NCBI RefSeq assembly: GCF_032813545.1
Contig: NZ_CP136520.1
Location: 3,838,001 to 3,902,000, forward strand
Length of the DNA stretch: 64,000 bases
Reading direction: 5' to 3'
Source of the DNA: Nodosilinea sp. E11
Lineage (GTDB): Bacteria; Cyanobacteriota; Cyanobacteriia; Phormidesmidales; Phormidesmidaceae
Shown here: positions 17,913-22,516 of the stretch, one piece after another
Numbering within the stretch: the first letter of the stretch is position 1
How the letters are laid out: the number at the start of each line of letters is the position of its first letter
The notes under the pieces: generated by a model
Told to the model about the DNA's origin: nothing
The model's database searches: none
Seen by the model: the letters and a program-made list of their open reading frames with translations, nothing else
Made by a program: the position numbers and the translations under genes

Positions 17913-20489
17913 ATGGCATCCCTTCCAGACTCCACCCTTCAAGTTTCTAAGGCCGAGGCTCAGGCGTTAGTTTTAGTTGCGCCGCTATCGGGGCAGATGG
18001 TGCCCCTAGCAACCGTGCCCGATCCGGTGTTTGCCCAGAAAATGGTAGGCGATGGGATTTCTATTGACCCGATTAGCCAAATGCTGCTGGCTCCCTGCGA
18101 CGGCGATATCGTGCAAATTCACAGTGCCTGCCACGCCGTGACGGTGAAAACCGCTGAGGGCCTTGAAATTTTGATGCACATTGGTCTTGATACGGTGGCG
18201 CTGAAGGGCGAGGGCTTTAGCGCCAAGGTGAAGGTAGGAGACAGGGTTAAAACCGGTGACCTGCTAATTGAGTTTGACGCCGACTATGTGGCCCTCAACG
18301 CCCGCAGTCTGCTGACTCAACTTGTGGTGACTAACAGCGATCGCGTAGCGGAGTTTCGCCCTGCTACTGGCCTAGTTAACGCCGCCCGCGACCCGGTGCT
18401 AGAGCTGGTGCTGATGGGGGCCAGTGCCACCAATGCCGCAGCCACTGGGGCAACGGTCACGTCTCAGCCAATTGTCATTCCCAACCCGGTCGGGCTCCAC
18501 GCTAGACCGGCGGCAGTGCTGGTGCAGCTAGCGAAGCAATATCAGTCAACTCTGCGCTTGCATCGGGGTAGCGACAGCGCTAACGTGCGTAGCGTAGTGG
18601 CAATCCTGGGTTTAGAGGTGGCTCAGGGAGATATGGTCACCCTGGAGGCGAAGGGGGCCGATGCCGATGCGGCGATCGCAGCTCTCTCTGAAGCCCTCCG
18701 CAGTGGTCTAGGCGAAGCGGGGGCCGTTGCCGTCACCGCTGCCCCCGCTAGCATTGCCCAAGCCGAGATCTCGGCTCCGGCCCCTCGGCCCCAAAGCGAT
18801 CACCCCAACATTGTTTTGGGCGTAGCGGCCTCTCCCGGCGTCGCCGTGGGCAAGACCTACCGCCAGCGACGGCAGGAGATTCACGTTGCCGAAACCGCCG
18901 ACAGCCCCCAGGCCGAGCACCGTCAGCTCGACAGCGCCCTCAACCAGGCCAAGCTCGAAATTGAGAGCCTGCGGGCTAAGGTTCACGGTCAGGGTGACCC
19001 TAGCCAGGCGGCTATCTTTGCTGCCCACCAAGAGCTATTAGAGGATCCAGAGCTGCTAGAGCTTGCCGGTAGCGCCATCGACCGGGGCAAGAGTGCCGCC
19101 TTTGCCTGGCAGCAGACCTATACCGCCCAGGCCGATCGCCTGGGGCAACTCAAGAGTGAGCTACTAGCCCAGCGGGCCAATGATCTGCGGGATGTAGGCG
19201 ATCGCGTGCTGCGACTGCTTACCGGGGTCAAAGAAGAGAGGGTGACCTTGCCCGTCAACACGGTCTTGCTAGCCGAAGACCTCACCCCCTCAGACATGGC
19301 CAATCTTGACCCTGCCCAAGTCGTGGGCTTCGCCACAGTGACCGGGGGAGCCACCTCCCACGTGGCGATTTTGGCGCGAGCCATGGGTCTGCCTGCGATC
19401 GCCGGGATCGAACCCCGCATTTTAGACCTCGCCGACGGCACCCCCGTAATTCTCGACGGCACCAGGGGCCGCATCCAGCTCAACGCTTCAGTGGCCGAAC
19501 TCGAGCAAACCCGAGAGCGTATGGCCCGCCAGACGGCCAAACAGGCCCAAGACCTAGAGCACGCCTTTGAACCTGCAATCACCAGCGATGGGCGATCGAT
19601 CGAGGTGGTGGCCAACATCGGTAGTCAGAAAGAGGCAGTAGCTTCCCTGCAGGTGGGCGGCGAAGGGGTTGGCCTGTTGCGAACAGAATTTATCTTTATG
19701 GCGGCGAGCGCTGCGCCTAGCGAAGACGAGCAGGAGGTCATCTACGCCGACATTCTGCGAGTACTGGGCGATCGCCCCATGATCATCCGCACCTTAGATG
19801 TGGGCGGCGATAAGCCCCTGCCTTACTTGCCCATGGCTCCTGAAGAGAATCCCTTTTTAGGGGAACGGGGCATTCGCCTGGGCTTTGACCGGCCAGACTT
19901 GATGCGTACTCAGTTTCGCGCCATTCTCAAGGCCAGCACGGTGGGCAAAGCGCGGGTGATGTTCCCGATGATCGCCCGTATGGAAGAACTCACCATGGCC
20001 AAAGCGGTGATGGAAGAAGAGCGCCAGAAGCTGGGGGTGCCCCCCATTGAGATCGGCATCATGGTCGAAGTGCCCGCCGCCGCCGTGTCTGCCGAGCGCT
20101 TTGCCGAGCAGGTCGACTTCTTCTCGATCGGCACCAACGACCTGACCCAGTACACCCTGGCGATGGATCGCGGTCACCCCAAGCTGGCTGCCTACGTCGA
20201 TGCTCTGAACCCCAGCGTGCTGCGGATGATCGATTTCACCGTGCGTGGGGCCGACAAGCACGGCAAGTGGGTGGGCGTCTGCGGTGGCATGGCGGGCGAC
20301 CCCCAAGCGGTCCCCATTCTGCTGGGATTGGGCGTAAAAGAACTGAGCGTCAGCGTGCCGGTGATTCCAGCGGTAAAAGCCCAGGTGCGGGCCTTGAGCT
20401 ATGCCCAGTGTTGTGAGTTGGCCCAGCGGGCGCTGAATTTGGATGCGGCGACCCAGGTGCGCGACCTGGTGCCCCTGGAGGAGGTGTAA
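17913..20489 (+). CDS. PTS EIIA(Glc)-HPr-EI fusion (phosphoenolpyruvate--protein phosphotransferase)
   Basis: An 858-residue cytoplasmic protein that carries out all soluble steps of a sugar PTS. Residues 18-165 are EIIA of the glucose/GlcNAc class with both active-site histidines (H74 in SACHAV, H89 in LMHIGLDTV). Residues about 185-270 are HPr ([11 protein letters not shown], phospho-His H196; the Ser-46-like site is kept in NVRSVVAIL). From about 300 on is [23 protein letters not shown] with its phospho-His near 481, then [36 protein letters not shown] and VCGGMAGDP with the active-site Cys. The order matches NagF-type proteins of pseudomonads. TAGGA 7 nt before ATG 17913 sets the start (an upstream TTG is also open). 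The membrane component follows at 20663. Confidence 0.95.
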
Positions 20490-20509
20490 CGACCCTAGAG
20501 GAAAGATGG

Positions 20510-20574
20510 GTAGGGTGCATGGGCGGGCAGGAGATCCCACCCCGACCCATTTCCGATCGCCGAATGCACCCTAC
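20510..20574. repeat. inverted repeat between the two PTS genes
   Basis: GTAGGGTGCAT (20510-20520) and ATGCACCCTAC (20564-20574) pair perfectly across a 43-nt loop. The same TAGGGTGCA/TGCACCCTA theme recurs near 44601-44628, so it belongs to a dispersed palindrome family and may act as a weak terminator or mRNA processing site within the operon. Confidence 0.6.
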
Positions 20575-20600
20575 GGATCTACTGGTTAATTTCACCACCC

Positions 20601-20649
20601 TTCACCCTTCACCCTTCACCCTTCACCCTTCACCCTTCACCCTTCACCC
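20601..20649. repeat. heptanucleotide tandem repeat (TTCACCC)x7
   Basis: Seven perfect copies of TTCACCC just 13 bp upstream of the ptsG-like ATG. This matches the short tandemly repeated repetitive (STRR) heptamers known from filamentous cyanobacteria. It lies in the leader, so copy-number change could alter translation but not frame. Confidence 0.9.
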
Positions 20650-20662
20650 TCTACCTCCAACC

Positions 20663-22516
20663 ATGAACATCAAAGCAACCTGGGACAAGGCCTTTGGGCT
20701 GCTGCAAAAAATGGGAAAATCCCTCATGCTGCCAGTGTCGGTGCTGCCAGTGGCAGGGTTGCTGCTAGGCCTGGGCAGTGCCCGGCTGATCGAGCTTCAG
20801 CAGCTAGAACAGGGCTTGCTCGCCGACTCCAAGTTTTGGTGGCTGCCGGAGTGGCTGGCTACGATCATGAAAAATTCGGGGGATGCCATCTTTGCCAGTC
20901 TGCCGCTGATTTTTGCGATCGCCGTCGCGATCGGCTACACCGGCAACGACGGGGTCTCGGCCCTAGCCGCCACTGTAGGGCTGATGGTATTTTTGGCTAC
21001 CCTGGGCACGGTCGCTCTGGGCTTGGGCCTCGACACTAAGGTGGTGCTGGGCATTCCCACCCTCGATACGGGGGTTTTTGGCGGTTTGATCATGGGCTGT
21101 GTCGCGGCCTACCTATTCAACAAGTTCTTTCGCATTAGCCTGCCGCGCTACCTAGGGTTCTTCGCGGGCAAGCGGTTTGTGCCGATTATTACCGCCTTTG
21201 CAGCGATTCTTACCGGCCTGGTGATGAGCGTGATCTGGCCGCCGATTCAGCTGGGCATCGACTCTTTTGCCAACGCGGCAGCCACGGGCGACAACGTGTC
21301 GCTAACAGTAGCGATCTACGGCTTCATTGAGCGCCTGCTGATTCCCTTTGGCCTTCACCACGTATGGAATGTGCCGTTTTTCTTTCAGATCGGCAGCTTT
21401 AACGATCCGATTACTGGGGAGGTGGTGCGGGGTGATATTGCTCGCTTTTTTGCGGGCGACCCCACAGCAGGAATTTTGGGCGGGGCCTATTGGTTTAAGA
21501 TGTTTGGCCTGCCAGCGGCGGCGATCGCCATTTGGCACAGCGCCAAACCCAAAAACCGTAAGCAGGTGGGCGGTCTCATGATCTCCGGTGCCCTGACGTC
21601 TTTTTTGACCGGCATCACTGAGCCGATCGAGTTTTCTTTTCTGTTTGTTGCTCCGCAGCTATTTGCCATCCATGCGGTGCTAGCGGGGTTTGCCGATTGG
21701 CTGTTTGTCACCCTGGGCGGGCGCATGGGCTTTACCTTTTCCCATGGGCTGATTGACTTCGTTCTGTTCAACAGTCTAGGGACGAGGGTTTGGCTGATTC
21801 CGGCCCTAGCTCCGGCTTTCGTCGCGCTGTATTACTTCATCTTTCGCTTTGCTATTCACCGCTTTAATCTGCTAACCCCAGGCCGCGAAGACAGTGAGGT
21901 AGATGATCAGGCAACTGTTGCCCTTACCGGTGACAAAGCTGCTATGGCCAAAGCCCTAGTTCTTGCCTTTGGCGGGCGCAGCAACATTAAAAACCTTGAT
22001 GCTTGCATTACGCGCCTGCGCATTACGGTGGATGACATGGCCAAGGTCAATGTGCCCCGGCTCAAGGCCTTAGGTGCCTCTGGGGTGTTGCAAATGGGGC
22101 AAAATGCCCAGGCTATCTTTGGCCCCCAGTCTGACAACCTCAAGACCGATATGGCCGATTATCTCAAAACGGCTGGTCCCGAAGCAGATGCCGTAGAGGT
22201 GCCTACCGAGAGTCTAGAAGACGAAGCGGCTCCCGATCTAGCCCAGATTCCTTCTGACCCCGACGCTGCTGAGAAATCTGAGGCGATGATTCTAGCCCTG
22301 GGTGGGGCCGACAATATTCGCACTGTGGACCCTGTTGCCCTGACCCGACTGCGGGTGGAGTTGACCAATCCCACTATCGTTGATGAAACAGCGCTTCAGA
22401 CGGTGGGCGTTCAGGGCATTATGCGATTGCGTGAGGATGTGCTGCACCTAGTAACGGGCCTCAACGCTGAACAGTACGCAGCCGAAATCGCCAAGCGACT
22501 GGAAATCAAGGTGTAG
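20663..22516 (+). CDS. ptsG: PTS glucose/GlcNAc-class EIICB with an extra cysteine-less EIIB domain
   Basis: A 617-residue membrane transporter that imports and phosphorylates a hexose. Residues 1-400 are EIIC of the glucose family; blocks such as [52 protein letters not shown] and [10 protein letters not shown] are closer in wording to PtsG than to NagE. EIIB follows with the phosphorylated Cys in [13 protein letters not shown] (about C447). A second EIIB-like domain (about 530-617) has [13 protein letters not shown] where the Cys should be, so it cannot carry phosphate. The frame is open upstream through the heptamer tract, but ATG 20663 begins the conserved sequence. EIIA, HPr and EI come from the gene 173 bp upstream. 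Glucose is favoured by motif, GlcNAc is possible given nagA in the window. Confidence 0.9.

Follow-up and report, generated by a model that had tools for sequence, protein, structure and literature searches.

A PtsG-type phosphotransferase system with a second EIIB domain, probably for glucose uptake, in a cyanobacterium

The glucose permease of the Escherichia coli phosphotransferase system (PTS), PtsG or EIICB-Glc, is served by separate EIIA, HPr and enzyme I (EI) proteins. PtsG of Azospirillum, Paraburkholderia and Caballeronia carries a second EIIB-like domain, EIIB', behind EIIC and EIIB, and an EI gene lies beside it, in Azospirillum a divergent one on the opposite strand. A third arrangement is that of the PTS-Nag of Ralstonia eutropha H16, reported for N-acetylglucosamine (GlcNAc) (PMC3222305), where EIIA, HPr and EI make up one protein, NagF, accompanied by an EIIBC protein, NagE. 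Here we analyse 64,000 nucleotides of the Nodosilinea sp. E11 genome (contig NZ_CP136520.1, positions 3,838,001 to 3,902,000; hereafter the window), in which two adjacent plus-strand genes encode an EIIA(Glc)-HPr-EI fusion and an EIIC-EIIB-EIIB' permease of PtsG type. Systems of this kind are known, but the host is unusual, and relatives in other phyla share the extra EIIB domain.

The window's permease is 58% identical to E. coli PtsG over 476 shared positions and retains both its EIIB cysteine and its glucose contacts, but the E. coli protein has no EIIB' and belongs to another subclade of the tree. The Azospirillum, Paraburkholderia and Caballeronia proteins have the same EIIC-EIIB-EIIB' layout, at around 54–56% identity, yet form a separate clade. 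A likeness to NagF-type proteins in EIIA-HPr-EI content, pointed out in the original prediction, holds. R. eutropha NagF has this domain content too; the systems differ in the reported substrate, while the contrast in the sugar pocket rests on other NagE-type controls (E202 and K257, see below).

The first gene (17913–20489, plus strand) is a single 860-codon frame for which ATG 17913 is preferred over TTG 17907; residues are numbered from the former and would be two higher from the latter. Its EIIA part (approximately 17973–18344) matches Pfam EIIA_1 (PF00358, 3e-44), its HPr part (approximately 18462–18701) PF00381 (6.6e-25) and its EI part (approximately 18816–20471) three PEP-utiliser domains (up to 3.5e-107), where PEP is phosphoenolpyruvate. 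These E-values are far beyond chance, and EI also scores 530.6 bits with TIGR01417 against a cut-off of 341.7. Phospho-residues are found at H74 and H89 of EIIA, H196 of HPr (GLHARPA), and H483 and C790 of EI. The second gene (20663–22516, plus strand, 617 residues) matches PTS_EIIC (PF02378, 3e-79) followed by two PTS_EIIB stretches (PF00367). Its EIIC membrane domain (20714–21688) contains the glucose contacts E223, R224, H232, H233, N236, K279, G317, T319, E320, F359 and S360, its EIIB domain (21932–22171) the phospho-cysteine Cys448 (LDACITRLR), and its EIIB' domain (22265–22504) an EIIB fold lacking the cysteine. ATG 20663 is most likely the start, because the 48 preceding codons cross an intergenic heptamer array and the nearest relatives align from residue 1 of the 617-residue form. 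For the entire permease AlphaFold gave a poor model (mean pLDDT 55.9), from which we took nothing but the secondary structure of EIIB and EIIB'. A complete PTS in two adjacent genes, as originally predicted, is thus borne out, every domain and phosphoacceptor being present; the earlier anatomy was right as to EIIC and to EIIB with its cysteine, but had missed the second EIIB-like domain.

Judged from sequence, the pair is probably a self-contained, PEP-dependent glucose uptake system. EI would autophosphorylate from PEP, and the phosphate would pass inside one polypeptide from EI to HPr to EIIA and then to Cys448 of EIIB. Glucose would be moved inward by EIIC and phosphorylated by EIIB to glucose-6-phosphate, which may feed either the oxidative pentose phosphate pathway or glycogen metabolism.

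The assignment to glucose draws on both family models and pocket residues. The permease exceeds the cut-off of TIGR02002 (glcB; 665.9 bits against 591.8) and falls short of that of the NagE model TIGR01998 (489.3 against 553.2). Among solved structures its closest relatives are glucose-specific EIICB chains of the E. coli PTS (E ~1e-164; PMC11393339). Roth et al. (2024) list glucose-contacting residues of E. coli PtsG (PMC11393339); at the 11 such sites compared, the two permeases are identical throughout. In all five NagE-type controls (E. coli NagE and proteins from Azospirillum, Cetobacterium, Novosphingobium and Gemmatirosa) E202 is replaced by N or Q and K257 by M, whereas the window's permease keeps E and K. 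We also compared the 80 best loci of a scan, 32 cyanobacterial and 48 others from at least nine phyla at 52–58% identity. Every EIICBB' row compared, nagBA-linked ones included, has the PtsG-type pocket, a uniformity partly selected since the search patterns for the 80 loci contained N215 and K257; the window, and relatives from a separate genome search, are free of that selection. By its residues, the permease pocket is of PtsG (glucose) type, so that of the glucose/GlcNAc class originally proposed the glucose half stands and the indecision does not.

Several observations weigh against this reading. Only E. coli NagE among the five controls is known as a characterised protein. The score with PRK11089 (ptsG), 645.2, lies just below the cut-off of 647, and a sigma-70 scan found no promoter-like site. 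Bacillus subtilis PtsG is reported to carry glucosamine (PMC3648570). Both nagB and nagA lie close to the pair in three of the 32 named cyanobacterial loci (L066, L068 and L071) and in two survey genomes (G392 and G393). A search of the fetched stretches of L066, L068, G392 and G393 turned up no further permease, a hint that amino sugars may be used there even though the pocket is of glucose type. In G392 (L155:9780–14765) the gene for the PTS permease stands in a row with a small unassigned gene, nagB and nagA.

These nagBA neighbours would suit a system for an amino sugar, GlcNAc or glucosamine, that cooperates with NagA and, where present, NagB. We rank this explanation second and consider it unlikely. 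The domain content of R. eutropha NagF/NagE (PMC3222305) fits it, as does a gene for NagA (GlcNAc-6-phosphate deacetylase) inside the window (5860–7080, minus strand). However, NagA is near-universal in the window's family, exceeding its cut-off in 58 of 63 genomes (the whole order as sampled) whether or not a PTS is present, and its gene in the window is probably unrelated to the pair. NagB has no match in the window's own genome, so that an imported amino sugar would be barred from glycolysis by way of NagB, and it exceeds its cut-off in only two of the 63. The pocket, partly selected as it is, and the score below the NagE cut-off tell against an amino sugar as well. In L071 (filamentous cyanobacterium CCP2) a further EIIC-EIIB permease, its pocket of NagE type (NRHHNM; 3380–5194), is encoded directly after nagBA and beside the PtsG-type gene, so that both permease types coexist there. 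At 53% identity to E. coli NagE and 44% to the window's permease, it is likely to represent a GlcNAc PTS in a cyanobacterium, which makes the amino-sugar explanation slightly less probable. Azospirillum lipoferum has an annotated nagE in the same cluster as its PtsG-type gene. Outside cyanobacteria, nagA without nagB is near the pair in three of the 48 loci, all from Azospirillum and all added by a tblastn repeat of the neighbour survey, in which open reading frame calling had overlooked nagA in GC-rich loci.

Other neighbours and searches bear on sugar metabolism more generally. In L056 and L057 a gene for a β-phosphoglucomutase-family hydrolase lies immediately downstream of the pair, and L056 also has a glycogen-phosphorylase-family gene nearby. 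The sugar porter model TIGR00879 gave only matches below cut-off in the window's own genome. HPr kinase gave no match there, a weak negative as the same search missed B. subtilis, which has hprK (PMC3648570).

The EIIB' domain resembles EIIB in sequence and fold. The last 88 residues of the permease match PF00367 at 8e-9, profile comparison aligns EIIB' with EIIB at 98.6% probability, and the domain's own model is good (pLDDT 93.1), its best structural matches being EIIB-Glc (TM 0.81). It carries one extra residue ahead of TRLR, and its active cysteine is replaced. Among rows with two motifs, which leaves out seven of 80, a cysteine occupies the EIIB' site in none of the 29 cyanobacterial rows (the window included) and in 21 of the 44 others. 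As EIIB' is also present in relatives from other phyla, often with its cysteine, the domain probably predates the transfer to cyanobacteria discussed below, with the cysteine lost in the cyanobacterial line. Most likely EIIB' is a non-catalytic docking or stabilising domain. A more elaborate proposal, which we consider unlikely, is that a phosphorylation-dead EIIB copy has turned into a docking or sensing domain that would report the phosphorylation of EIIA or EIIB to a partner, tying PEP-driven glucose uptake to photosynthetic carbon status in cyanobacteria. Its model is E. coli EIIB, which signals to the repressor Mlc; the fold comparison of EIIB' also retrieved a solved complex of Mlc with EIIB (3bp8). 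In the rooted tree E. coli PtsG sits within a 100/100 clade of nine rows, at least seven of them with EIIB', and the EIICBB' layout raises the question of whether its single-EIIB form is a shortened one.

Trees were built from EIICBB' (82 rows), from EI (72 rows, 10 loci without a full EI being left out) and from EIIC rooted with NagE (50 rows, a chosen subset). The last is a rebuild of the first, in which E. coli NagE lay on a branch of 5.9 with two outgroup rows apart, using the EIIC part and five NagE-type outgroups. Cyanobacteria form one fully supported clade in all three (SH-aLRT 100 in the EI tree; 100/100, and present in 100% of 200 bootstrap trees, in the NagE-rooted tree, where the PtsG clade is likewise 100/100). 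Because of this single clade in each gene tree, one old acquisition by cyanobacteria is likely, though the direction of transfer is our inference. On this view an ancestor shared by several cyanobacterial lineages would have gained the two genes as a block, and its descendants would have inherited them and lost them repeatedly; passage between cyanobacteria may also have occurred. Tblastn places an EI gene on the same strand in 26 of the 32 cyanobacterial loci. In five of the remaining six a contig end is no more than 160 bases from the start, but in L077 the 2.9 kb upstream contain no EI, so not all six are simply cut by contig ends. All 48 non-cyanobacterial loci have EI, 44 of them on the same strand and four, with a divergent EI, on the opposite one.

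As for the donor, the rows nearest to cyanobacteria in the NagE-rooted tree are mostly Pseudomonadota, with a weak joint (82/72), while their sister in the EI tree is a mixture of phyla (87). The foreign origin proposed originally appears likely, but the nearest outgroup differs between trees: a proteobacterial donor is possible, and an enterobacterial one is not supported, E. coli PtsG lying in another subclade. A plasmid search with the permease gave 555 records, all below 60% identity, of which the 20 listed are proteobacterial.

A rival explanation is contamination or a chimeric contig, for which the only pointer is the genome's contamination estimate of 3.54%. The source contig comprises 5,458,963 bases of a 6.1 Mb genome in seven contigs. 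The pair is flanked on the left by an OppB-like ATP-binding cassette (ABC) permease gene (16546–17601, minus strand), conserved there and serving as a marker of the site within the genus, and on the right by a DASH-cryptochrome/photolyase gene (24544–26166, minus strand). L050, L052 and L055 have the pair between the same two markers, and further assemblies have it next to OppB. Named strains, among them Leptolyngbya PCC 7375 and Planktothrix PCC 9631, carry it as well. On contig size and shared gene context we set contamination aside as scarcely credible, and the locus belongs, as originally held, to a real cyanobacterial chromosome.

The wider distribution of the pair was surveyed in 386 sampled cyanobacterial genomes. 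Several of the 32 loci are on the same contigs as survey genomes (L157 and L056 are probably one genome). PTS_EIIC matches in 22 at E = 0.001, seven of them over its cut-off. Five of these are PtsG-type by score (the window's own genome, G000, and G170, G011, G157 and G262), while G008 scores as FruA-like and the match in G255 is a fragment of 75 positions. The window's family has permease matches in 25 of its 63 genomes, or 23 once two with fragments only (G405 and G425) are discounted, and in the genus 14 of 26 hold a substantial copy, in some cases truncated where the contig stops. The pair is patchy, at five of 386 sampled cyanobacteria, but not confined to one genome.

Within the genus, the site was compared in 12 genomes without an intact pair and four with it. 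It is emptied in seven of the 12 (G406, G407, G408, G413, G420, G421 and G427), the OppB and DASH-cryptochrome genes being at most 1.3 kb apart or having only a major facilitator superfamily (MFS) gene detected between them. G405, which has no PTS, keeps between the two markers a 55-residue remnant resembling the end of EIIB' (L211:2501–2665, 60% identity), and in G425 pieces of EIICBB', but no EI, lie next to OppB. In G411 and G424 a search of the vicinity did not reveal the second marker, and the stretch from G412 is too short to judge. Where the pair is present OppB lies beside it in all four, the second marker being seen only in G415. Emptied sites and a remnant between shared markers favour loss within the genus, though the G425 assembly is fragmented. 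Such losses, along with the remnants in G405 and G425, might suggest that the pair is mainly regulatory or a decaying leftover with no working uptake route. The cysteine-less EIIB' would agree with this, as would the fact that no regulator gene adjoins the pair, and in L058 each gene is split across two frames. Yet the window and most relatives keep their frames and catalytic residues at 59–88% identity, therefore apparently under selection, and we regard a leftover as quite improbable.

Apart from its markers, the site has several lesser features. Between the two PTS genes lie an imperfect 17-nucleotide inverted repeat with arms 43 nucleotides apart (20504–20580) and the heptamer array, 7.9 perfect copies of CACCCTT (20596–20650); low-complexity peptides of a similar kind match elsewhere in the genome. 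Overall and third-position GC content of the fusion gene is slightly above that of all six neighbours, and that of the permease gene within or near their range. Downstream, an MFS transporter gene (22658–23995) exceeds the cut-off of the L-lactate transporter model SfMCT; the same gene is at this site in G407 and G420, both without the PTS, and was not found in the named PTS loci.

The glucose-type pair is not the only PTS among cyanobacteria. The window's own genome has a fructose PTS in which a FruB-like EIIA-HPr-EI protein (815 residues), FruK and FruA are encoded in a row (G000:C7:5277105–5282534; L046:7106–12535). Like the pair it combines such a fusion with a permease, but its EIIA is of type 2, its permease of FruA type, and FruK is added. 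An IS110 transposase gene lies near it (L046:1448–2434). HPr occurs in 32 of the 386 genomes and 26 of 143 genera. Of 19 HPr loci inspected, 14 encode DhaM-HPr-EI chains by their N-terminus (two confirmed by TIGR02364), four come from PtsG-type genomes and the last consists of an isolated HPr frame; among the 14 genomes only G008 has EIIC over cut-off. Many cyanobacteria, mostly of one family (f7; for example L137 and L144), have such DhaM-HPr-EI fusions without EIIC over cut-off. These chains resemble the window's fusion in joining HPr-EI to an EIIA, but the latter is of the EIIA-Man type of dihydroxyacetone kinase, which such chains probably serve.

The literature matches listed, among which subscription papers are mostly missing, include no report of a glucose PTS native to cyanobacteria, although this does not amount to proof that none exists. 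Two papers mention a PTS gene or a fructose IIC in the Azolla symbiont (PMC6979478, PMC10095879), and another describes the engineered case of E. coli ptsG put into Synechocystis (PMC11433640). A statement in a 2008 paper needs revision (PMC2405797). The premise of the original prediction that cyanobacteria lack a sugar PTS is too strong, given HPr in 32 genomes of the survey, the fructose PTS in the window's own genome and a pair shared across family and genus. In a PTS, sugar uptake is tied to PEP, a compound that cyanobacteria also require for anaplerotic carbon fixation, and some phototrophs may pay for the import of glucose with PEP.

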